Shown in pieces: positions 417-13,547 of a stretch of 64,000 nt of DNA (position 1 is the first letter of the stretch; each line of letters starts with the position of its first letter). A program made the position numbers and the translations under genes. The DNA comes from an uncultured Fibrobacter sp. (GTDB taxonomy: Bacteria; Fibrobacterota; Fibrobacteria; Fibrobacterales; Fibrobacteraceae). The stretch spans positions 1 through 64,000 of the forward strand of contig CAMKLO010000009.1 in the NCBI GenBank assembly GCA_946413655.1. Reading direction: 5' to 3'. The notes under the pieces were generated by a model. It worked only from the letters and a program-made list of their open reading frames with translations. It had not been told where the DNA came from and made no database searches.

Positions 417-1007
417 ATGACAACATCCGTTGATTATTATAATAAAAATGCGAAGGAATACTCCAGCAGTACTATTGGTGTAGATTTTTCTGCCACGCAG
501 GATCGATTCCTCAATTATTTACCGCTACATGCGAAAATATTGGACTTTGGGTGTGGTGCTGGTCGTGATGCGAAAGCGTTCCTTATGAAAGGTTATGATG
601 TGGACGCTGTCGATGGTTCAGAAGAACTGTGCAAAATTGCCAGTGCCTACACGGGCCTTGCCGTTAGGCAAATGTTTTTTCAACAATTAGATGCTGTTGC
701 AAAATATGATGGAATTTGGGCGTGCGCTTCTATTCTTCATTTACCGAATGACGAACTTATTTCAGTTATGAAAAAAATGTCGGTGGCTCTAAAACCTACT
801 GGAATAATTTATACTTCGTTCAAGTATGGAACTTTTTCTGGCAAAAGAAACGACCGCTTTTTTTCTGATTTTACTGAGCAAACATTTACCGGATTTCTTT
901 TGAATATTCCAGAATTGAAATGCGATGAATACTGGATTTCTAAGGATGTAAGACCGAATAGGAGCGAAGAAAAATGGATGAATATAATCCTTTCCCGCAA
1001 AGCTTAG
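417..1007 (+). CDS. SAM-dependent class I methyltransferase
   Basis: A 196-residue protein with the SAM-binding motif I ILDFGCGAGRDAKAF at about residues 40-54 and an acidic strand-2 end (VDAVDGSEEL), typical of small type-11 methyltransferases. No DNA-methylase catalytic motif (DPPY or PCQ) is visible, so a base-modifying role cannot be claimed; the substrate is unknown. It overlaps the downstream HNH gene by 34 nt in another frame, which implies translational coupling. It opens the methyltransferase-HNH-helicase-helicase run. The ribosome binding site is poor; ATG at 417 is the first plausible start. Confidence 0.75.
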   Translation: MTTSVDYYNKNAKEYSSSTIGVDFSATQDRFLNYLPLHAKILDFGCGAGRDAKAFLMKGYDVDAVDGSEELCKIASAYTGLAVRQMFFQQLDAVAKYDGIWACASILHLPNDELISVMKKMSVALKPTGIIYTSFKYGTFSGKRNDRFFSDFTEQTFTGFLLNIPELKCDEYWISKDVRPNRSEEKWMNIILSRKA

Positions 1008-2158
1008 CTTTAGATATTAATTCGCCCTATTGCAATCAACTCGATGTCGAGTGCTTTTCGCTCATGATGAAAGATCCGACGTATTGTTACAAGTTCTACT
1101 GGCTTGAAGCGATTGTCAAACTGATTGATGAGGATGTGAATATTGCAAGTTTTGATGCGATTATTGACGAAATGATTGCGAATGCATGGTTCACTGTCCG
1201 TGAATACCACATTCATTTGAGCGGCATGCTGAAAGGCGAATTTCGCGATGCATTAGAATTGGCCGTTACTGATTTAGCCGAAAAGAGTGGCTTGCAATCC
1301 AATGCATCCAAGATAGAAATCAAGAATGCAATCAAAGATTTTAACGGAGATATTAAGAAGTATAAAATCGCATTGACAAAATACGTTCCTTACCGCGCAT
1401 TGGCCGGATTTTATAATCGCTATGAACAGGGCGGTGGTGCGAAAGTTAATTGGAATAGTGCCTCGGAAATTGTCGGATATACGCAAGTTGTGAATCGTCG
1501 TATTTTGCTACCGTACACCTTTGACGAAGGCTCGCAACTGAATCGTGTCGTTGTGTTCAATCCCGTTTGGAAGCAATATATCCAAGATAATTCTGTTGCG
1601 TTACTCGGATGGATTCAGCATGAAAAATCAAAATGGTTGCAAGTCAACAATCCCGAAGTTCCGGGTATTGTGTATAAACTTTCGCCTTTGGATGCAAGTG
1701 TACGAAAAATGGAGTATGTTCGTAAATTATGGGAACTTGTTCTAGAACGTGAAAAAATTCTTGATGTCTATACAAATAAGCCCATTGAAAAATCTGATTA
1801 CGATATAGATCATTTTATTCCTTGGTCTTTTGTGATGAATGATGAACTGTGGAATCTATCTCCGATGAATCCCGCTCTCAATTCCTCTAAGGGAAATCGT
1901 TTACCTCATTGGACTTTTTTTAAGCGATTTGCTTTGAACCAATATGAAATGTATCGATTGATGTGGAATGACGATTCTATCCGCGGCCGTTTTGAAAAAT
2001 GCTATCGCGATAATCTACATTCGATATGGGCTGAAACGGAGCTTTTTAGAGCGGGAAATAGTGAAGAACAATTTATCAATATTCTGCGAAAGAATATGCA
2101 GCCCGTATATGATTCTGCGAGACGGCAAGGATATGAAATTTGGAATTTTAAGGGATAA
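974..2158 (+). CDS. HNH-family endonuclease
   Basis: A 394-residue protein. The HNH core lies near residues 258-306: LDVYTNKPI, then DIDHFIPWSF with the paired D-H of the first catalytic strand, then NLSPMNPALNSSKGNRLP with the conserved Asn and a basic end. The zinc-binding Cys pairs of many HNH enzymes are absent. The N-terminal 250 residues resemble no domain I can name and may recognise the target. Its start lies inside the preceding methyltransferase gene, and the helicase gene starts 5 bp after its stop, so the three are probably one transcript. A defensive nuclease role is inference from context. Confidence 0.75.
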   Translation: MDEYNPFPQSLALDINSPYCNQLDVECFSLMMKDPTYCYKFYWLEAIVKLIDEDVNIASFDAIIDEMIANAWFTVREYHIHLSGMLKGEFRDALELAVTDLAEKSGLQSNASKIEIKNAIKDFNGDIKKYKIALTKYVPYRALAGFYNRYEQGGGAKVNWNSASEIVGYTQVVNRRILLPYTFDEGSQLNRVVVFNPVWKQYIQDNSVALLGWIQHEKSKWLQVNNPEVPGIVYKLSPLDASVRKMEYVRKLWELVLEREKILDVYTNKPIEKSDYDIDHFIPWSFVMNDELWNLSPMNPALNSSKGNRLPHWTFFKRFALNQYEMYRLMWNDDSIRGRFEKCYRDNLHSIWAETELFRAGNSEEQFINILRKNMQPVYDSARRQGYEIWNFKG

Positions 2159-2163
2159 GGCGT

Positions 2164-5100
2164 TTGCTAAACATGTTTGTGCTAATAATTGTATTATTCA
2201 CCTCAATTGCTCTTTTTTATGTAGCACGTCGTAGACAACTTGCTAAAGAATTTGAACAAAAAGTAGAAAGCTTCATAGAAGTATGTGATTCTTTTTTCGT
2301 TGACTTTGACGGGATTTTTAATCATTATATTCAGGATGCAGAAAGGGACGCTTTTGTTTCTAAGTATAAAACGTTATATTACGAGTTGCAACGGTATAGT
2401 GGTATTCCATCAAAAGTTGATGATTTTGTAAAGTTAGAAGATTTTAAGAAAAAGTACAAAGATTTCCCAAGGCTCGTTTTAGAATCGAATGTGGAAATCA
2501 AATGCAAAGAGTTTTTAATAGAAGTCAATTCGTTTTCAATTGAATATGATGGATTGTTTAAACACTATATTCAAGATGCAGAAAGAGATGCTTTTATTAA
2601 GAAATATCAAACATTGTATTTTGAATTGCAAGAGTGCAGTCAGAAGTCTTCAAAAGTAAAGACCTTTGTAAGATTAGAGGAGTTTAAAAGAAAGTATAAA
2701 AGTTTTCCAAGACTCGTTTTAGAATCAAATGCAGAGATTAAACGTAAAGAGCAACTCAAGTTGCTTTTGCAATTTGTGAATAGTTTTTTTGATGAACTAC
2801 GTTTGTTGACAACTCATTATGTTACGGATACTGATGGGGAAATATTTTATCATAAATGGGAAAAATTGTCTCAAGATGTTGCAACTTGTAATTTAAAAAC
2901 GAATGATGAAGAATTTGGGAAAATAAATCTTTTTGAAAAGATTTATAAAAACTTTTTCAATCATTTAGAAAATGCCAATAAATTATTTATTGCGCAAGAA
3001 TCCCAAAAATATGATTCTTTGTTTTCCGATATAGATGGTAAGTCTTTGGATTTGCAACAACGAGAGGCGGTCATAACCGATGAAGACAGAACACTTGTAC
3101 TTGCAGGGGCTGGTAGCGGAAAAACTCTTACGATTGCAGGCAAGGTTAAATATCTATGTGATGCAAAGAATGTAAATCCAGAAGAAATACTCCTTATTTC
3201 GTTTACAAAAAAATCTGCTCAAGAAATGACAGATAGAATTCAGAGAAAGTTGAGAATTCCTGTTAAATCAACAACTTTTCACAAGTTGGGTCTTGATATA
3301 ATCAAAAATGCTGAAGGGAAGAGTCCTCAGGTTTTTGAAAAATCTCTTTTTGATGAATTTATACATGACTTTTTTGAAAAAGAACTTGTTAATTATCCTG
3401 AATTGGTGAAAAATTTGATTGAATATTTTGCGTACTATATTGATATCCCGCAAAATATGGAAGAATGTTCATCGTTGGGTGAAATGTATGAGGCTGAAAA
3501 AAGTATAGACTTGGAAACGCTTAGATCGAAATATGATCAAGAAAAATACATACATGACGAAAAAAATAAGAAAGCGCAAAACCGCACTACATTGAAAAAT
3601 GAAAAAGTCAAGAGTTTGGAAGAAGTTCAGATTGCAAATTTTCTTTTTTTAAATGGAGTAAATTACGAATATGAAAAACTCTATCCTTTCGAAAGTCAGG
3701 ATCCCTTACGAAAAGCGTACAGGCCAGATTTTTATTTGAAAGATTATGATATATATTTAGAACATTTTGGAATAACAAGAGACTATACGGTTCCGTGGCT
3801 TTCTCTTGTTGAAGCTCAAAAATATTTAGATGGAATTGAATGGAAAAGAGAATTTCATAAGCAGAATAATACCAAGTTGATTGAAACTTATTCATACTAC
3901 AATTCAGAAGGTGTTCTCCTGCAAAAACTTGAGGAACTTCTAAAACAAAATGGGGTTGTTCTGAAATCAAGAAATTTCATGGATGTTTTCAATACTGTTT
4001 ACGCAACCAAGACGAATAAGTATTTCTCTGAATTTGTGAAGTTATGCGGAACTTTTATCGTACTTTTTAAGTCTAATAATTATACAGTAGAAACGATCGA
4101 TGATTGGAAAGATTGGCTTTCGTTAGAAGATAAAAGTTTCTTGCAAAGAAGAAACAATACCTTTTTGAATATAATAAGAGTAATATTAGATGCTTATCAA
4201 AAACACTTAATTGCCAATGATTCAATCGATTTTTCGGATATGATAAACAATGCGACTGAGAATGTTAATGGTGGTTGCGAAATTCCTTTGTATAAGTATG
4301 TGATTGTTGATGAATATCAGGATATCTCGAAGGCCAGATTTAATCTGTTAAAGGCTATTGTCGATAAAACAAAAGCGAAGTTATTCTGTGTAGGGGATGA
4401 CTGGCAATCCATATATAGGTTTGCTGGTAGCGATATTTCGTTATTTACCGATATTGCAAAGTATTTTGGAAAAACGAAAATATTGAAAATTGAGAAAACT
4501 TATCGTAATTCGCAAAAGTTAATCGATGAAGCTTCGCATTTTGTTTTGCAAAATCCACTTCAGCTCAAGAAATGTTTACGCTCCGATAAAAAGCTAGATT
4601 ATCCTCTTGTTTTTTGGGGCTTCGATGACAATCCGAGAAACGCTTTGCAAGCGATAATCAATAAAATTGCTTTGGATTATGGAACGAATTCGTCCATTTT
4701 ACTTTTAGGGAGAACAAATTACGATATAGAAATTGCAAAAGATACCGGCTTATTCCGAGAGATTCGGAAGAATGGTGCTGATGCGCTAGAGTACATTCAA
4801 AATCCGATGTTGTCAATACAATTCCTTTCCGTTCACAAATCCAAGGGATTGGAAGCTGATAATGTTATTCTTCTGAATTTTAGAAATGATAAACTTGGTT
4901 TTCCGAATCAGATGATTGATGATCCTGTTTTGAATTTTGTTCTTACAAATGCGGAAGATTACAGATTTGCGGAAGAACGTCGTTTATTTTATGTTGCTAT
5001 TACTCGAACAAAAAATAGAACCTATGTCCTTGTGGATAACAAGAACCCATCTCCATTTTTCAAGGAATTTTCAGAATCTACATCTGTATTCTTCAAATCA

Positions 5101-5388
5101 ACGGGACGAAGAACAAATGGAAAACTGACGAAATGTCCTCTTTGCAAAACGGGGGACTTGCTGAAAGTTGAACATGATGGAAAATCTTTTGTGGGGTGTT
5201 CTAATTTTCCTCGGTGTCGGTATGCGCAAAGAGACGTGACTATTTTGTCAAGTCCTAAAATATGTCCTAATTGTGGAGGGTTCCTTATAAAACGGAAAGG
5301 CTATAATGGCCATTATTTTGTGGGATGCTCTAATTATCCTACTTGCGAATATAAGGAAAAGTTCATTTGGAATGAGTTTAGCAACTGA
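2164..5388 (+). CDS. Membrane-anchored UvrD/Rep-type helicase with nuclease insert and topoisomerase zinc ribbons
   Basis: A 1074-residue superfamily 1 helicase. In order: one N-terminal membrane segment (about 3-21); three tandem copies of an 80-residue unit (about 33-118, 119-198, 199-276), the first two sharing HYIQDAERDAF and FPRLVLESN; Walker A AGAGSGKT near 315; an insert with IANFLFLNG, YRPDFYL and IYLEHFG (about 486-536) resembling the PD-(D/E)XK-like insert of DNA helicase IV relatives; Walker B VDEYQD near 713; motif VI YVAITRTKN near 942; and two four-Cys topoisomerase-type zinc ribbons (about 991-1021 and 1034-1063). Start may be TTG 2164, with AAGGGA upstream, or ATG 2173. It is likely a DNA-unwinding and cutting machine held at the membrane. 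Confidence 0.8.
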   Translation: MLNMFVLIIVLFTSIALFYVARRRQLAKEFEQKVESFIEVCDSFFVDFDGIFNHYIQDAERDAFVSKYKTLYYELQRYSGIPSKVDDFVKLEDFKKKYKDFPRLVLESNVEIKCKEFLIEVNSFSIEYDGLFKHYIQDAERDAFIKKYQTLYFELQECSQKSSKVKTFVRLEEFKRKYKSFPRLVLESNAEIKRKEQLKLLLQFVNSFFDELRLLTTHYVTDTDGEIFYHKWEKLSQDVATCNLKTNDEEFGKINLFEKIYKNFFNHLENANKLFIAQESQKYDSLFSDIDGKSLDLQQREAVITDEDRTLVLAGAGSGKTLTIAGKVKYLCDAKNVNPEEILLISFTKKSAQEMTDRIQRKLRIPVKSTTFHKLGLDIIKNAEGKSPQVFEKSLFDEFIHDFFEKELVNYPELVKNLIEYFAYYIDIPQNMEECSSLGEMYEAEKSIDLETLRSKYDQEKYIHDEKNKKAQNRTTLKNEKVKSLEEVQIANFLFLNGVNYEYEKLYPFESQDPLRKAYRPDFYLKDYDIYLEHFGITRDYTVPWLSLVEAQKYLDGIEWKREFHKQNNTKLIETYSYYNSEGVLLQKLEELLKQNGVVLKSRNFMDVFNTVYATKTNKYFSEFVKLCGTFIVLFKSNNYTVETIDDWKDWLSLEDKSFLQRRNNTFLNIIRVILDAYQKHLIANDSIDFSDMINNATENVNGGCEIPLYKYVIVDEYQDISKARFNLLKAIVDKTKAKLFCVGDDWQSIYRFAGSDISLFTDIAKYFGKTKILKIEKTYRNSQKLIDEASHFVLQNPLQLKKCLRSDKKLDYPLVFWGFDDNPRNALQAIINKIALDYGTNSSILLLGRTNYDIEIAKDTGLFREIRKNGADALEYIQNPMLSIQFLSVHKSKGLEADNVILLNFRNDKLGFPNQMIDDPVLNFVLTNAEDYRFAEERRLFYVAITRTKNRTYVLVDNKNPSPFFKEFSESTSVFFKSTGRRTNGKLTKCPLCKTGDLLKVEHDGKSFVGCSNFPRCRYAQRDVTILSSPKICPNCGGFLIKRKGYNGHYFVGCSNYPTCEYKEKFIWNEFSN

Positions 5389-5452
5389 TTGAAGTGGATT
5401 GTTTTTTCGTGCGAGACTTGTTTTGAAATTTTTTCTTATATATTTGTAGAGT

Positions 5453-8400
5453 ATGGATAATTTGCACGACTTTTTATTTTTTGATTTGGAATATAATCCT
5501 GGAACAGAAACGGTTCGGGAATACGGTTATATTCTAGGTGAAGAACGTGCTCGTGAAAAAAATCCAGCGAATTTAGAACTAGCGGCTCAAAAAGCGAAAT
5601 TTATTGTGGGGCACAATGTTCTCCGTCATGATGCTCCGATTCTTAGACAGTACTTTTCTATAGATTTCCCCAATGTTAAGGCGTTGGATACCTTGATGCT
5701 TTCTTCGTTATTGTTCCCGTGCAAACCGTATCACAAGTTGCGTAAGGAATATCTGAAAAACGAAGATGAACCATCAGATCCTTTAAAAGATGCAGAGCTT
5801 TGCAAACGACTTTTACAAGATTGCGTGGAAAAATGGGGTAGCTATCCTTGGCAACTTCGTTATCTCTTATTTCAGTTTTTAAAGAATGAACCTGGTTTTG
5901 CTCCGTTCTTTAATCTTGTAGAAGTTCCTGAACAAAGTGAATTGCGCTCCAATCTGTCTGAAATACAACGTTGGTTTACTGCGCATTATGAGAAATCGAT
6001 TTGCTTGCATCAAGATTTTGAAAACGAGTGGGCGGTCTATCGTGTCGAATGGTGTTTTCTTCTAACATTATTTCATGAAGAAGGACCTAGTGATTTTGTT
6101 CCCCATTGGGTTCGCTACCAGTACCCACATCTTGAAAGTATTTTGCATCGTCGTCGCCTTGTTCCTTGTGGCAATTCTCAATGTCCATATTGCTCCGAAC
6201 AGCTAAGTTCAATAAAACAATTAAAGAAATGGTTTGGATTTGATGCTTTCCGTTCTTTCGAAAAAGACGAGAAAATTCCTCTACAACAGCGAGTTGTTGA
6301 AACTGCAATGCGAGGCAAGTCCCTTTTAGCAGTTTTCCCGACTGGCGGTGGCAAGTCAATGACTTTTCAATTGCCTGCTTTGATTGCAGGTAGCCAAATT
6401 GGTGCACTGACGGTTGTGATTTCTCCGATTGTTGCTTTGATGAAAGACCAAGTGGATGTGTTGGAAAAGCGTTTTGGGATAGATCGTGCTGCGTATATAT
6501 ACTCACAAATTTCTCCATTAGAGCGAAAAAATACAATTAGGGCTATTCTTGATAATGAAAAAGACATTCTTTATATTTCGCCCGAAGCTCTTCGTTCCAA
6601 TACGATATTTAAATTGCTAAAACAACGCCGTATAAATCGATTTGTTATAGATGAAGCGCATTGCTTTAGCGCTTGGGGACAAGATTTCCGAGTCGATTAT
6701 CTTTATCTTGCCGATTTTATCAAAGATCTCGAAGAAGAAAAGCGCTTAGAATCATCTATTCCAATCAGTTGTTTTACGGCAACAGCGAAACAGGATGTCG
6801 TTGATGATATTTGTGGATATTTTAAGAAAAGAATGAATCTTGATTTGGTAAAGATTGTTAGCTCTGCAACAAGAAAAAATTTGGAATATTCTGTTATACT
6901 TGCATCTAGAGATAAACATGAACGTGGAAAAGAGCTTGTTAATTTGTTGAAGTTGTATGATGGGCCTAAAATAGTTTATGCAACTACAGTTAAAACAACC
7001 GAAAAATTAGCAGAAAGTTTAAAAGAGTATGGTTTCAAAAGCGGTTGCTATAATGGTCAAATGGATGCAGATATCAAAATAGATGTTCAGGAAGAATTTC
7101 AAAAAGCTGACGGAAATATTGATACAATTGTTGCTACTACAGCATTTGGAATGGGGGTTGACAAAGACAATGTTAAATTAGTTGCTCATTACGAAATCTC
7201 AAGTACATTAGAAAACTATGTGCAAGAGGCTGGTCGTGCGGGTAGAAAACCGGATATGCAGGCGTTCTGTGTTGCTTTGTACAATTCAAAAGATTTGGAT
7301 ACCAATTTTCAACTTCTACAGCAATCAAAATTATCTGAAAAAGAAATTGGTGACATTTGGCGTGTGTTAATAAAGCAAAGCGAAAAACGTGAACGGCTTG
7401 TGATGTCTGCTTTGGAAATTGCAGATAAATGCGGTTGGACTGAGCAAAATGAAAATATAGGAGCGCTAGAAACAAAAGTTAAACACGCCATTATGCTTTT
7501 GGAAGATCAGGGCTTTTTGAAAAGAAAACGTAATCAAACACAAGTATTTGGTTCCTCTATTGCCATAGAAACTGTTTCGCAGATTCGGTACATTTTAGAT
7601 AGTCCAAACATTGATAAGTTAAATACAATTGAAAACATCGCATTTAGAATCATGCGACATATTATCACTAAAAGATGGACAAAGAATCCTGAATGTACTC
7701 TTGATGATATCACAGTAAATTTGGGCATTGAACGAAAGGATGCAAATGAGGCTTTACGGCTGCTTCGTAGCAAACGTCTTTTAGACCAACGAAATGATTG
7801 GAGTGCAAAGATTCAACGCTTGGGGACCTTTAATTGCAAACGAATGCTGGAACGGGCGAAAGGTTTGCAAGAAATTCTGTTAAAAAGTTGTGAGGGACAT
7901 TGTATCAATGAGCCGTTTTTGCTGAATTTGACGAAAGTTAACGCTGCTCGAGGTGAAACTGAATCTGGAACTGAAACAAGGAAATGTCTGCAAATTTTGC
8001 GAGGTATTCTTCGTTATTGGGCTCATGAAAGTATTGCAGAAATTCATTTAATAGAGGCTGGTCATCAGCGATACCAAATTGAATTTCTAAAAGAACTTGA
8101 TATTGTCCGTAAGAATCTTGTTGATAACTGGGAATGTTTTGAAAAGATTATCGATACTCTGCTTGTTATACAAAAAGAGCAGGGAAAAAAGAAAGATGAT
8201 ACTCTTAATGATACTGTTTGGTTCTCTATAGACAATCTCATCTTGAGAATCTATGGGGAAAACGACATTGAAGACCTTGCAAGGCAAGCGCAATTTGAAT
8301 ATGCTTTACTCTTCTTGCATTTGATTGGAGCTATTTGTCTAGAAAATGGATTGATGGTATTCTATACCGGGCTTGTTTTGGATATAAGTCCTGAAAATAG

Positions 8401-10390
8401 GATAAAACCATTTAGCGAACAAGATTTTCAGAAACTCCACGACTTTTATGAAAACAAGGCTGAAGCGATTCATATTGTCGGCAGGTATGCCGAAATGATG
8501 CTTAATAATAAAGATGCCGCACAAGAATTGCTGAATGACTATTTTGCGTTGAATATTAACCAATTTCGTCAAAAATACATGATGTCTCCCGATGAAAAGG
8601 GTGCAGTTTCCATAAATTTGCGTGAACGTATAAACGCGGTTAATAAAGAACAGAAGGCCATTATCAAAAGTAATGCGAGACATATTTTAGTTGGCGCTGG
8701 ACCAGGGTCTGGCAAGACACACATGCTTGTTCATAAGGCCGCGTCTTTGTTGTGGCTCGAAGAGATTCAACCCAATTCTTTGTTGATGTTGACTTTTACA
8801 CGTTCAGCTTGTCGAGAACTTCGCAAGCGATTAAATGATTTGGCAAAGGGGTTGGCCCATGGTGTTACTATCACAACTTTCCATGCCTTAGCTTTTTCAA
8901 TTCTCGGAATTCAGGGCTCTAAGAAGGATTTTAAGAAGACGGGCAATGCGCAAAAAGGCGAAGAAATTATTAATAAAGCCGCAGAGGTCGTTGAATCAGG
9001 CGAAGATGTTGGAATTGGTTCACTAGGCGTTATTCTTGTTGATGAATTTCAAGACCTTTCTAGTTCGGAATACAAAATGTTAAAAGCCCTCTATAGGTAT
9101 GGAGATAAACCTCCGAGATTGATAGTTGTTGGGGATGATGACCAAAGTATTTTTGAGTTTCGAGGAAGTTCCTCTGAATTTTTTAGAAAATTTTCATCGG
9201 AATTTTCCAATACGAAAGAATTCTATTTAACGAATAATTATCGTTCTGCGGTAAATCTTGTTCGAGCAAATGAAGAAATATTGAGCTGTCTAAATTATCG
9301 AGTTAAAGATGGCAAGAAACAAGTTGCTGTTAATCCTGAACTTGGAAAACTTGAATTCTTTGAAGAATACGATAGAACGCGAGGTGCGTTTGCCGCTGCT
9401 GAAATTTTGGTTGAGAAATGTAAATTAGATAATGGTTCCGCTTGCATTCTAAGTCCAGAAAATTCAGAAGTGTTTTTGGCGGCAGCAAAATTAGAAGAAT
9501 TAGGAGTAGATTGTCGTGTCATAAAAAGCCAGGATCTAGAAAAATGTCCTGTGGAATCAGTTCGTGAAATTGTTGGTTTCAAAACAATTGTAGAAGCGGA
9601 TAAAGATATTGCAAAGAGATCTTGGACTATAGAGCTGTTCAAACAAATTGCAGAAAAGTATAAGAAAGACTATGAAGGCGAAAGTTCCTTTGAATTGTTA
9701 GATGCTGTAATCAACGACTTTATAGATGGTGAAGACGAAGTTGTTTTAAGTGATTTTGAACAATACCTAAACGAAGTCTCTTATGCTGACCTAAATAAAA
9801 AAGGAAATTTGCAGGTTAATGTTGGTACAATGCATAGTTCAAAAGGACTTGAATGGGATCACGTTATATTAAATCTTGGTGAATGGATTCCTGAAACTCA
9901 GGAACAATTCAGATTACTCTATGTTGCTGCAACGCGTGCCAAGAAAACCCTTACAGTATTAGGAACTGAGGCGAATCTTCCGAGTTCTTGGATTAAGAAT
10001 TTTAAAAATATGGGCAGACTTAAAGAATATAGTGTACCTAAGATAGTACACGTTGAAACCGGCTTAGATGATTTGGTCTTCAAATATATGCTTGTAAATG
10101 AAAAGAATAAAAGTCGGACACGATATTTACAAGAGAAATTTGCATCCATTCCATTGGGAACTGTAATTGAGATTAAATTTAATCAAGAATTTCAATGCTA
10201 CAACACGTACTTTAATGGGCGGTACGTTACCAAATTTTCTAATAAATTTGAAAAAGATTATCTCAGGAATCTCCAGAAAAATTTCTATAAGCCGAAAACA
10301 GCTAAATTAATCCAAGTTTGTAAATGGGAAGATGAATTTGGTCAGGCTATCTGGGTTCCATTGCTTAGCGTTGAATTTGAAAAGATGTAA
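5453..10390 (+). CDS. DEDD exonuclease-RecQ helicase-UvrD helicase fusion
   Basis: A 1645-residue three-part protein. Residues 1-130 form a DEDD-type 3'-5' exonuclease (FFDLEYN with D11 and E13; IVGHNVLRHDAPIL; DPLKDAELC). A small Cys cluster (CGNSQCPYC) precedes the RecQ helicase: Walker A FPTGGGKS near 296, DEAH box VIDEAHCFSAWG near 400, and the RecQ C-terminal motif ENYVQEAGRAGR near 587. The C-terminal third is a UvrD-type helicase: GAGPGSGKT near 1081, VDEFQD near 1197, GDDDQSIFEFRG near 1228, MHSSKGLEWD near 1460 and YVAATRAKK near 1490. It follows the other helicase by 64 bp. RecQ-UvrD fusions occur in anaerobes, but their role is not established; genome defence is inference. Confidence 0.85.
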   Translation: MDNLHDFLFFDLEYNPGTETVREYGYILGEERAREKNPANLELAAQKAKFIVGHNVLRHDAPILRQYFSIDFPNVKALDTLMLSSLLFPCKPYHKLRKEYLKNEDEPSDPLKDAELCKRLLQDCVEKWGSYPWQLRYLLFQFLKNEPGFAPFFNLVEVPEQSELRSNLSEIQRWFTAHYEKSICLHQDFENEWAVYRVEWCFLLTLFHEEGPSDFVPHWVRYQYPHLESILHRRRLVPCGNSQCPYCSEQLSSIKQLKKWFGFDAFRSFEKDEKIPLQQRVVETAMRGKSLLAVFPTGGGKSMTFQLPALIAGSQIGALTVVISPIVALMKDQVDVLEKRFGIDRAAYIYSQISPLERKNTIRAILDNEKDILYISPEALRSNTIFKLLKQRRINRFVIDEAHCFSAWGQDFRVDYLYLADFIKDLEEEKRLESSIPISCFTATAKQDVVDDICGYFKKRMNLDLVKIVSSATRKNLEYSVILASRDKHERGKELVNLLKLYDGPKIVYATTVKTTEKLAESLKEYGFKSGCYNGQMDADIKIDVQEEFQKADGNIDTIVATTAFGMGVDKDNVKLVAHYEISSTLENYVQEAGRAGRKPDMQAFCVALYNSKDLDTNFQLLQQSKLSEKEIGDIWRVLIKQSEKRERLVMSALEIADKCGWTEQNENIGALETKVKHAIMLLEDQGFLKRKRNQTQVFGSSIAIETVSQIRYILDSPNIDKLNTIENIAFRIMRHIITKRWTKNPECTLDDITVNLGIERKDANEALRLLRSKRLLDQRNDWSAKIQRLGTFNCKRMLERAKGLQEILLKSCEGHCINEPFLLNLTKVNAARGETESGTETRKCLQILRGILRYWAHESIAEIHLIEAGHQRYQIEFLKELDIVRKNLVDNWECFEKIIDTLLVIQKEQGKKKDDTLNDTVWFSIDNLILRIYGENDIEDLARQAQFEYALLFLHLIGAICLENGLMVFYTGLVLDISPENRIKPFSEQDFQKLHDFYENKAEAIHIVGRYAEMMLNNKDAAQELLNDYFALNINQFRQKYMMSPDEKGAVSINLRERINAVNKEQKAIIKSNARHILVGAGPGSGKTHMLVHKAASLLWLEEIQPNSLLMLTFTRSACRELRKRLNDLAKGLAHGVTITTFHALAFSILGIQGSKKDFKKTGNAQKGEEIINKAAEVVESGEDVGIGSLGVILVDEFQDLSSSEYKMLKALYRYGDKPPRLIVVGDDDQSIFEFRGSSSEFFRKFSSEFSNTKEFYLTNNYRSAVNLVRANEEILSCLNYRVKDGKKQVAVNPELGKLEFFEEYDRTRGAFAAAEILVEKCKLDNGSACILSPENSEVFLAAAKLEELGVDCRVIKSQDLEKCPVESVREIVGFKTIVEADKDIAKRSWTIELFKQIAEKYKKDYEGESSFELLDAVINDFIDGEDEVVLSDFEQYLNEVSYADLNKKGNLQVNVGTMHSSKGLEWDHVILNLGEWIPETQEQFRLLYVAATRAKKTLTVLGTEANLPSSWIKNFKNMGRLKEYSVPKIVHVETGLDDLVFKYMLVNEKNKSRTRYLQEKFASIPLGTVIEIKFNQEFQCYNTYFNGRYVTKFSNKFEKDYLRNLQKNFYKPKTAKLIQVCKWEDEFGQAIWVPLLSVEFEKM

Positions 10391-10738: not shown

Positions 10739-11296
10739 TTACGCCACCAAATCCATCAGGTCAAAGTACATCAAGCGCGTATGCGGGTCATCGTCTTCGA
10801 GGTTCATCATGCGGAACCCGTTCTTCTCGTAAAACGGAACGGCCCCCAAGTAGGCATCTACCGTTATAAAGCGGCAGCCCGTTTTGTTGTTGATGACGAA
10901 CATGGATTTGATGTAATCGAGCAATCCGGAACCAATTTGATTTCCTTTGGCTTGCTTATCAACTGCTAAGCGGCAGAGCTTTACGGCGGGGTAGCTTTTC
11001 AACCGTTTCTCGTTCGGGAATCCTTGCTTGCGGCGGAATCTGTTGAATTCCGTCATGCTCGGAAAATCGCTTGTCGCAATTTTGTCGTTCGCGAGGCTGA
11101 AGTAGGCTAGGGTTTGTTTTGATTCTGGGTCGATACATGTATAGCTGACCGCTAGCATGTGGTAGTCGAACAAAGAAGCTCTATTTGCTATATAGTCGTT
11201 CAAGTCCTTGTCGCCGCAGTCGAAATTCTCGACGGCGTTTGTGGGTTGCAACCTTACAATTTTGAATCTTTCGGGAATTCCACATGTCTGAACCAT
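10739..11296 (-). CDS. GNAT acetyltransferase toxin, TacT-like
   Basis: A 185-residue GNAT protein. It has the N-terminal signature of TacT-type toxins, NFDCGDKDLNDYI, the acetyl-CoA loop KGNQIGSGLL, and the C-terminal PFYEKNGF with the candidate catalytic Tyr. Known relatives acetylate the amino group of charged tRNAs and block translation; this is knowledge of the family, not shown here. Its start overlaps the end of the upstream small gene by 43 nt, typical of a coupled toxin-antitoxin pair. Start ATG 11296 is kept because later in-frame starts cut the conserved N-terminus. Confidence 0.75.
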   Translation of the reverse strand: MVQTCGIPERFKIVRLQPTNAVENFDCGDKDLNDYIANRASLFDYHMLAVSYTCIDPESKQTLAYFSLANDKIATSDFPSMTEFNRFRRKQGFPNEKRLKSYPAVKLCRLAVDKQAKGNQIGSGLLDYIKSMFVINNKTGCRFITVDAYLGAVPFYEKNGFRMMNLEDDDPHTRLMYFDLMDLVA

Positions 11297-11496
11297 GGGT
11301 CCACACCTCCGTTTGCTGCTTCGCGGGCGCGTTTTTCACGCATGCCATCTTCAAATGCTTTTTGGAAAATTTCATAGTTCCGTAAGCGGCGGGCGCGAGC
11401 TTCTGGAGTTTCGGGGTGCCTCTCCTGCATACGGGCGATAAACCGGCGAGCATCCTCGCCGAACAAGATAGGTGTTTCTCTGATGGGTCTTGCCAT
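11254..11496 (-). CDS. Putative antitoxin partner of the GNAT toxin
   Basis: An 80-residue, strongly charged protein beginning MARPIRETPILFGEDARRF, followed by a Glu/Arg-rich helical region. Small proteins with this opening are commonly found in front of GNAT toxins in Bacteroidota and relatives; I recognise the arrangement but no ribbon-helix-helix fold is evident by eye. It is first in the operon and overlaps the toxin gene by 43 nt, as expected for an antitoxin that may also autoregulate. Function is inferred from position. Confidence 0.6.
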   Translation of the reverse strand: MARPIRETPILFGEDARRFIARMQERHPETPEARARRLRNYEIFQKAFEDGMREKRAREAANGGVDPWFRHVEFPKDSKL

Positions 11497-11717: not shown

Positions 11718-13547
11718 TTATTCCACCGTCACGCTCTTGGCGAGGTTTCTCGGCTGGTCCACGTCGTTGCCGCGGAGAACGGCGATGTGGTAGGCGAGCA
11801 ACTGCAGCGGGATGCAGGTGACAATCGGCATGAGCATCGGGCGGGTCTTCGGCACTATAATGAGGTTGTCTGCGATTTCGTCGAGCGGGTGGCAGTCTTC
11901 CGTGGTGACGGCGATGACTTTACCGCCGCGGGCCTTGATTTCGCGGATGTTGCTGATAATCTTGTCGAAGAGCGAATCCTTCGGGGCGATGACCACGACC
12001 GGCATGTTTTCGTCGATAAGGGCGATGGGGCCGTGCTTCATTTCGGCGGCGGGGTAGCCTTCGGCGTGGATGTAGCTGATTTCCTTGAGCTTCAAGGCGC
12101 CTTCCATGGCGACCGGGTAGCAGAAGTGACGGCCGAGGTACAAGAAGTTGTTCGCCTTGCAGAGCGTCTTTGCAATTTCGGCGATGCTGTCGGAGAGCTT
12201 GAGCGTTTCGGCAACGAGGTCCGGAAGTTCCGTGAGTTCCTTGACGATGTCGGCGCCGGTTTCAAAGCTGAGTCGGCGCTGGCGACCGAGCAGGAGTGCT
12301 ATCATGGCAAGTACGGTGACCTGGCTTGTGAACGCCTTGGTGCTGGCTACGCCGATTTCCGGGCCTGCGTGCAGATAAACGCCGCCGTCGCTTGTGCGTG
12401 CGATGGTCGAGCCGACTCCGTTACAGATGGCAAGTGCAGTTGCGCCTTTCTGTTGCGCTTCCTTGAGGGCGGCGAGCGTGTCTGCGGTTTCGCCAGACTG
12501 GCTGATGGCAATTACGAGCGTGCCCGGTTTGATGATGGGGTTTCTGTAGCGGAACTCGGATGCGTATTCGACTTCGACCGGGACGCCGGCGAGGTCTTCG
12601 ATCATGTATTCACCGACCATGCCTGCATAGTAGCTGGTGCCGCAGGCGGTGATGATGATGCGGTTGATGTTCCTGAGTTCCTTGATGTTCGTGTCGAGGC
12701 CGGCGAGTTTCGCGTTTCCTTCGGCGGCGAGCAGGCGACCGCGCATGGTGTTGCGCAGCACTTCGGGCTGTTCGAAAATTTCCTTGAGCATGAAGTGCGG
12801 GAATCCGCCCTTGGCGACGGCGTCGGCGTCGAATTCCACGTCCTGGACTTCGCGCTGCACTTCGTGGCTGCTCATGTTCACGATGGAGTAGCTGCCGTCC
12901 TTGATTTGCACGATGTCGTTGTCGTCGAGATAGACGACTTTCTGCGTGTGGTTGATGATGGCGGAAACATCGCTGGCGAGGTAGAAGTCGCTGTCGTTTC
13001 CGATGCCGAGGATAAGCGGACTTCCGCGGCGGGCGCCAATCAAAACGTTTGGTTCTTCGTTGCAGATGACGCCAAGACCGAACGTTCCTTCGATTTGCTT
13101 GAGGGTCTTGAGCACGGCGGACTTCAGGTCGCCATTGTAATAGCGGGCGATGAGGTGGGCGACGACTTCCGTATCGGTTTCGGACTTGAATTCAACACCT
13201 TCGGAGATGAGCTTCGCCTTGAGGCTTGCGTAGTTCTCGATGATGCCGTTGTGGACAATCGAGATTTTTCCGTCAAAGCTTGTGTGCGGGTGCGCGTTTG
13301 ATTCGGTGGGGGCACCGTGAGTAGCCCAACGCGTGTGGGCGATGCCGATGGAACCCTTGATGGGGTAGTTTTTCAATTTGTCTTCGAGGGCCTTGATTTT
13401 TCCGGATGCGCGGACAACTTTGATTTGCCCTTGGTCGATGACGGCGACCCCCGAGCTATCATAGCCACGATATTCCATTTTCTTGAGACCTTCGACGAGA
13501 ACCGGAAGAGCCTCTCCTTTACCGATGTATCCGATAATTCCGCACAT
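11718..13547 (-). CDS. glmS: Glutamine-fructose-6-phosphate aminotransferase
   Basis: A 609-residue protein of the normal family length. It makes glucosamine-6-phosphate from fructose-6-phosphate and glutamine, the first step of UDP-GlcNAc synthesis for peptidoglycan and LPS. The N-terminal glutaminase domain starts MCGIIGYIG with the nucleophile Cys2, followed by EYRGYDSSGVA. Two sugar-isomerase (SIS) domains follow, with CGTSYYAG and SQSGETADT, and the end LAKSVTVE matches the family. It is a single-gene unit with its own terminator; no glmS ribozyme is evident in the 127-bp leader. Confidence 0.97.
   Translation of the reverse strand: MCGIIGYIGKGEALPVLVEGLKKMEYRGYDSSGVAVIDQGQIKVVRASGKIKALEDKLKNYPIKGSIGIAHTRWATHGAPTESNAHPHTSFDGKISIVHNGIIENYASLKAKLISEGVEFKSETDTEVVAHLIARYYNGDLKSAVLKTLKQIEGTFGLGVICNEEPNVLIGARRGSPLILGIGNDSDFYLASDVSAIINHTQKVVYLDDNDIVQIKDGSYSIVNMSSHEVQREVQDVEFDADAVAKGGFPHFMLKEIFEQPEVLRNTMRGRLLAAEGNAKLAGLDTNIKELRNINRIIITACGTSYYAGMVGEYMIEDLAGVPVEVEYASEFRYRNPIIKPGTLVIAISQSGETADTLAALKEAQQKGATALAICNGVGSTIARTSDGGVYLHAGPEIGVASTKAFTSQVTVLAMIALLLGRQRRLSFETGADIVKELTELPDLVAETLKLSDSIAEIAKTLCKANNFLYLGRHFCYPVAMEGALKLKEISYIHAEGYPAAEMKHGPIALIDENMPVVVIAPKDSLFDKIISNIREIKARGGKVIAVTTEDCHPLDEIADNLIIVPKTRPMLMPIVTCIPLQLLAYHIAVLRGNDVDQPRNLAKSVTVE

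Follow-up and report, generated by a model that had tools for sequence, protein, structure and literature searches.

An overlapping methyltransferase-HNH gene pair, probably a portable restriction cassette, in a composite cluster at a Fibrobacter insertion hotspot

A conserved pair within a composite cluster

From our analysis of a 64,000-nucleotide stretch of DNA (the window) from an uncultured Fibrobacter sp. (GenBank assembly GCA_946413655.1, contig CAMKLO010000009.1, positions 1 to 64,000), four co-directional genes at 417-10390, encoding in order a methyltransferase (MT), an HNH protein, a UvrD-type helicase, and a RecQ-UvrD fusion, were found to be a composite lying in an insertion hotspot between glmS and scpA. 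The MT-HNH pair, with its two genes overlapping, is the part that is conserved, and UvrD and RecQ-UvrD assort freely. We consider it fairly probable that the cluster was built around a portable restriction cassette made up of HNH and a coupled methyltransferase that acts on a substrate other than DNA. The initial annotation had proposed a single candidate defense system of four genes; this mistaken four-gene system is replaced here by a widespread, testable two-gene unit, which is unnamed in PADLOC (2023) and in the open-access literature searched. Main-text passages of the DefensePredictor study (PMC13092281), a BREX survey (PMC12839542), and a Dnd survey (PMC10853773) make no mention of the pair. 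The question raised is why a small, apparently non-DNA methyltransferase accompanies an HNH nuclease beside so many immune systems.

All four genes were recovered as open reading frames (ORFs) on the plus strand with a GC content of 32-39%, against ~50% across most of the remaining window, in agreement with the AT-rich and closely packed arrangement first described. MT (417-1007) and HNH (974-2158) overlap by 34 bases, UvrD (2164-5388) follows after 14 bases if its start is ATG 2173, and a further 64 bases separate UvrD from the RecQ-UvrD fusion (5453-10390). Pfam agreed with the S-adenosylmethionine (SAM) methyltransferase, HNH nuclease, and UvrD helicase identities assigned earlier, with matches to Methyltransf_25 in MT, HNH_4 in HNH, UvrD and two topoisomerase-type zinc ribbons in the third protein, and DEAD/Helicase_C and UvrD in the fusion. 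NCBIfam matches were partial and far under the cut-off, with the exception of the match of the fusion to the general model of the RecQ family. Searches of defense models (PADLOC-DB 2.0.0, 2023; best 25 families per protein) gave, among the matches listed, only generic domain matches (the UvrD cores to GajB, the RecQ core to DpdF, and the HNH motif to Cas9), which bears out the earlier statement that no named system fits. Neither Pfam nor the PADLOC matches listed gave the BREX core (BrxC, PglZ, BrxX/PglX), DISARM DrmB (DUF1998) and DrmA helicase, or Zorya ZorA/ZorB for any of the four proteins; for BREX, this result covers the sequence from the contig start onward.

Linkage was estimated in 111 Fibrobacteraceae genomes (G handles), on which all counts for this family rest; the window genome is G000, which is 88% complete, and some genomes carry a second name (e.g., L002 = G083, L003 = G086, L004 = G040, L005 = G092). 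MT was found in nine genomes and HNH in the same nine, adjacent in 9/9, with a tenth, marginal HNH match in G041. UvrD orthologues (at least 56% identity) were present in 12 genomes, six adjoining HNH and six in genomes without MT or HNH. Long RecQ-UvrD homologues were more frequent (29/111) and adjoin MT-HNH-UvrD in only four, namely G000, G083, G086, and G040, where the contig end cuts the block; in G084, MT-HNH-UvrD and RecQ-UvrD lie on different contigs. Conceivably, the four genes could be a single machine in which MT marks self DNA and HNH with the two helicases destroys unmarked DNA, and the operon-like tight spacing in G000, G083, and G086, whose entire four-gene blocks share 92-96% DNA identity, is what such a machine would show. 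Nevertheless, we regard this as very improbable and rejected it on the unlinked occurrence of its parts: UvrD and RecQ-UvrD occur apart from MT-HNH in many genomes, the same hotspot can hold them without the pair, MT-HNH in Lachnospiraceae occurs without either helicase, and MT is devoid of DNA methyltransferase features. Of the proposed linkage, only that of MT with HNH survives, and it holds across phyla.

A scan of 84,980 species yielded 237 pattern matches, 226 of which were confirmed as HNH relatives, and the best 80 of these 226 came from Fibrobacter, Lachnospiraceae, and other Clostridia. MT was nearby in 59 of these 80 loci, mostly with an HNH overlap of 28-40 bases. Of 397 genomes drawn around one Lachnospiraceae genome, 79 carried HNH, and around 77 HNH loci of this draw MT made up 24% of genes at offset 1 and 1/146 (0.7%) at offset 2 and was absent farther out, which is a sharp signal of linkage; the two samples share some genomes and are not fully independent. 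In viral contigs collected with MT as the seed, an HNH-type protein of one of three related subfamilies adjoins MT in 7/11 (in one case with one small ORF between); these are other HNH subfamilies, and relatives of the window type were not found in viral contigs by profile patterns. The MT-seeded search also recovered the pair on Acinetobacter and Roseomonas plasmids.

The methyltransferase and the HNH protein

The MT is a class I SAM methyltransferase of 196 amino acids (aa), TehB/UbiG/NTMT-like, with a high-confidence structure model (predicted local distance difference test, pLDDT, 95.9). Its closest solved relative is RPA2492 of Rhodopseudomonas palustris (PDB 3e23; E 1.6e-38; TM 0.87), a structural-genomics entry titled 'uncharacterized protein' and hence no clue to the substrate. 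Peptide N-terminal methyltransferases and small-molecule methyltransferases come next, and no DNA methyltransferase was among the best 50 listed structural matches. Motif searches and Pfam detected no [DNS]PP[YFW] or C5-methyltransferase motif and no DNA-methyltransferase domain; a target-recognition domain is also missing, and 196 aa leave no room for one. Standard restriction-modification (R-M) is therefore unlikely, as is protection of host DNA by MT in the R-M manner, so that the 'modification' half of the modification-plus-degradation machine suggested earlier did not hold in that sense. The MT may instead act on HNH, on another protein, or on a nucleotide, and its invariant Arg/Lys would suit an anionic substrate.

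We also weighed a type II R-M pair whose DNA methyltransferase is unconventional. The methyltransferase gene overlaps that of the (predicted) endonuclease, an arrangement shared with many R-M operons, so the two adjoin as in type II systems. The features of MT just described speak against such a pair, and so does the HNH tree, on which HNH is repeatedly found with and without MT: partnership with MT accounts for 21 changes, at least 15 of them on well-supported branches, compared with eight for MazG and five for Dnd. With a classical R-M nuclease, such absence of MT should be lethal. We therefore judge a type II pair improbable, and classical R-M was rejected on the missing MT motifs.

The HNH protein (394 aa) combines a helical N-terminal domain with a C-terminal Cas9-like HNH_4 nuclease domain. 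Residues D279, H280, N294, and N303 of its Cas9-type HNH motif are invariant in 58 sequences, and we take their roles to be those of the corresponding residues of the Cas9 HNH domain. Because these catalytic residues are intact throughout, the nuclease is probably active. The resemblance of the N-terminal half to a winged helix is weak; such a fold was considered and set aside, as the best structural matches were winged-helix domains of the origin recognition complex with Z of 6.2 or less, under the reliable level. Foldseek with the N-terminal part gave no significant match.

Exchange of the third gene and the neighbors of the pair

The window cluster lies beside glmS, and the relatives G083 and G086 show scpA as the other flank. 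This hotspot is unoccupied in most Fibrobacter. By hand count, 47 Fibrobacter genomes have less than 1 kb between glmS and scpA (e.g., G063 with 116 bp), and 14 have 3.5-14.4 kb. The inserts read were UvrD alone (G022), UvrD with one gene (G064), all four genes (G083 and G086), and RecQ-UvrD with one or two passengers (G084 and G060; also G089, next to glmS where the contig ends). At a second Fibrobacter hotspot (L005, L157, L159), whose flanking genes resemble xpt-pbuX (named by eye from sequence), G084 and G018 carry MT-HNH-UvrD, and G025 carries RecQ-UvrD but no MT-HNH. Both hotspots carry exchangeable defense-type genes. The window genes are of defense type, in line with the earlier proposal, and were horizontally acquired.

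The second hotspot also holds a clean natural example of part exchange between defense loci. The loci of G092 (L005) and G084 (L157) share 7.1 kb at 91% identity, and the shared part ends exactly at the HNH stop codon; past it, G084 carries UvrD and G092 carries a DdmD-related gene (E 3e-66 to PDB 9ix4) and a DdmE-related gene (E 1e-12 to 9iw3), after which the same flank resumes in both. DdmDE thus fills the slot behind MT-HNH in G092; the window cluster has neither DdmD nor DdmE. In G051 (L008), a SauUSI-like DUF3427 helicase with NUDIX lies directly behind MT-HNH, in the place of UvrD. As the gene behind MT-HNH differs (UvrD, DdmDE, or a SauUSI-like helicase), the third gene can be exchanged, with MT-HNH as the constant part.

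These exchanges could also be taken to mean that MT-HNH-UvrD is a three-gene Fibrobacter system, in which a membrane-anchored UvrD translocase/nuclease needs HNH and other helicases (DdmD, SauUSI-like, Z1) fill the role elsewhere. UvrD stands closely behind 6/9 of the Fibrobacteraceae pairs, the UvrD/DdmDE exchange took place at the exact HNH stop codon of one site, and third genes beside the pair are often helicases of superfamilies 1 and 2 (SF1/SF2). This reading is possible, though we would bet against it, given that six genomes have UvrD but no MT-HNH, that the pair is solitary in many Lachnospiraceae, and that Dnd and BREX neighbors are no simple helicase partners.

Defense systems are frequent neighbors of the pair. 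In L024, the Wadjet genes JetA/C/D lie 40 bp upstream of it, and further loci carry a TmtA-like gene (L075), a type I methyltransferase (L060), DdmDE (L005 and the Lachnospiraceae locus L039), or SauUSI-like helicases; more distant plasmid pairs adjoin BREX (L241, L244) and type I-F CRISPR (L243). Dnd genes occur at six HNH loci. In the Lachnospiraceae locus L210, dndC, dndD, and dndE (all over curated cut-offs) and the cysteine desulfurase gene dndA directly precede HNH-MT, and relatives of HNH are also found near Dnd-type genes on cyanobacterial plasmids. Dnd phosphorothioation loci encode nucleases of their own, such as DndI (PMC11662687), and passages of the Dnd survey describe wHTH-SAD(SRA)-HNH proteins (PMC10853773). 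The window HNH differs from the Dnd nucleases in having no detected DUF262/DUF1524, SRA, or sulfur-binding domain and in its pairing with a small MT; dndC had no match in G000 (88% complete) and none over the cut-off in the 111 genomes. SauUSI (PLD-helicase-DUF3427) is a frequent neighbor of HNH relatives, and MT relatives lie beside or are fused to PLD-helicases; it is nevertheless a separate enzyme and is absent from the window cluster. One such fusion of MT to a PLD-helicase, on a Polaromonas plasmid (L242:6001-7758), is apparently truncated near a transposase.

We tentatively raise a broader proposal, that MT-HNH is a promiscuous add-on immune cassette for unrelated DNA-targeting defenses (Wadjet, DdmDE, Dnd, BREX, SauUSI-type, and UvrD nucleases), providing a common nuclease whose safety would be set by non-DNA methylation. 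As for the portable cassette itself, several observations weigh against a restriction role. The HNH structure is predicted with moderate confidence (mean pLDDT 76.6), lowest in the catalytic part; the pair stands alone among ordinary genes in some genomes, e.g., upstream of apparent RNA polymerase genes in L035; 20/77 HNH loci are without any tracked partner; and defense neighbors may reflect common hotspots rather than joint action.

In the window cluster, a separate UvrD helicase-nuclease has been added at the 3' end of the mobile MT-HNH cassette, and an independently traveling RecQ-UvrD gene lies beside MT-HNH-UvrD in the same hotspot. If the pair is a restriction cassette, HNH would be a DNA endonuclease cutting invading DNA, and MT, presumably coupled to it in translation, would methylate a protein or small molecule, with no sequence-specific methylation of DNA. 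Most simply, this methylation would keep HNH from harming the host; alternatively, it could prime HNH. The helicase or translocase defense that is encoded in line with the pair in many genomes, and which varies by lineage (UvrD, DdmDE, SauUSI-like, Wadjet, Dnd), may deliver DNA to HNH, and MT-HNH would add a nuclease to it or serve as a back-up; the neighbor may equally be an independent second defense.

The NUDIX and MazG genes near HNH relatives bring in another explanation of MT, as an enzyme of nucleotide house-cleaning or modification that, like these neighbors, shields the host from modification-sensing nucleases of its own. NUDIX is fused to the MT N-terminus beside HNH at five loci (L019:9039-10037, L022:4714-5943, L080:9027-10001, L170, and L183), and a DCTPP1-like MazG and a CTP-pyrophosphohydrolase-like NUDIX adjoin HNH in relatives. 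The association of NUDIX with SauUSI-like DUF3427 helicases is supported with and without tree correction, and SauUSI cleaves DNA with 5-methylcytosine or 5-hydroxymethylcytosine (m5C/hm5C; PMC3874153). The invariant Arg/Lys of MT would fit here as well. Nevertheless, a nucleotide role for MT appears rather unlikely: neither NUDIX nor MazG adjoins MT-HNH in the window, and peptide N-terminal methyltransferases are among the nearest structural matches whose substrates are known, so that a protein substrate fits equally. The apparent substitution of MazG for MT reaches significance only without tree correction (Fisher p 0.007 for exclusivity); the tree-corrected test, with too few informative pairs, was not supportive, and mutual replacement was set aside as unsupported on the HNH tree. 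A recurring set at L020, L027, L189, L195, and L238 consists of an SLFN-g3/GIY-YIG helicase, a DCTPP1-like MazG, a second MazG-like protein, HNH, a SauUSI-like DUF3427 helicase, and NUDIX; this combination of house-cleaning enzymes for deoxynucleoside triphosphates with a modification-dependent nuclease suggests protection against self-cutting at misincorporated modified cytosine.

The two helicases and the hotspot passengers

The UvrD protein, a separate module able to follow HNH, is helicase IV-like and consists of an N-terminal membrane segment, a repeated stalk, a UvrD core with an insert, and two C4 zinc ribbons. Its ORF was called from TTG 2164; relatives keep a start matching ATG 2173, which is probably the true one. 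A conserved PD-(D/E)XK-like motif, RPDFYLKDYDIYLEH, supports the internal nuclease-like insert noted earlier. At the N-terminus (2173-2900 in the window; relatives L156-L162), the conserved membrane segment is followed by a stalk of ~80-aa repeats, and the relatives are 991, 1071, and 1156 aa long, in steps of about one stalk repeat. The RecQ-UvrD gene, an independent single-gene passenger of the hotspot, encodes 1645 aa. Of its first description as an exonuclease-RecQ-UvrD fusion, the RecQ and UvrD parts agree with Pfam; the N-terminal exonuclease region has no Pfam match, and its DEDD motifs were read by eye only. The UvrD core of both window helicases matches GajB of Gabija and helicase IV models; the window proteins differ in adding a membrane segment, PD-(D/E)XK insert, and zinc ribbons, or a RecQ fusion. 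GajA (OLD-type nuclease) was not among the PADLOC matches listed, the GajB-model matches being through the UvrD core only.

The contig starts 416 bases before MT and cuts the ORF6N-domain gene named in the initial annotation, the first 34 residues of which are present at 3-104 on the minus strand. A regulatory role, suggested for it at the time, is unlikely because ORF6N rides the hotspot without MT-HNH: in L150, it adjoins RecQ-UvrD at glmS-scpA in the absence of the pair. It is a passenger outside the module. On the other side of the cluster are a GNAT acetyltransferase gene (10739-11296, minus strand), presumably another passenger, an 80-aa ORF upstream of it (11254-11496), and glmS (11718-13547, minus strand), the fixed flank of the hotspot; scpA, the other flank, lies past the contig end. 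The GNAT gene and the 80-aa ORF (10739-11496) possibly resemble a GNAT toxin-antitoxin pair, fragments of which also flank the second hotspot (L005, 16344-16801).

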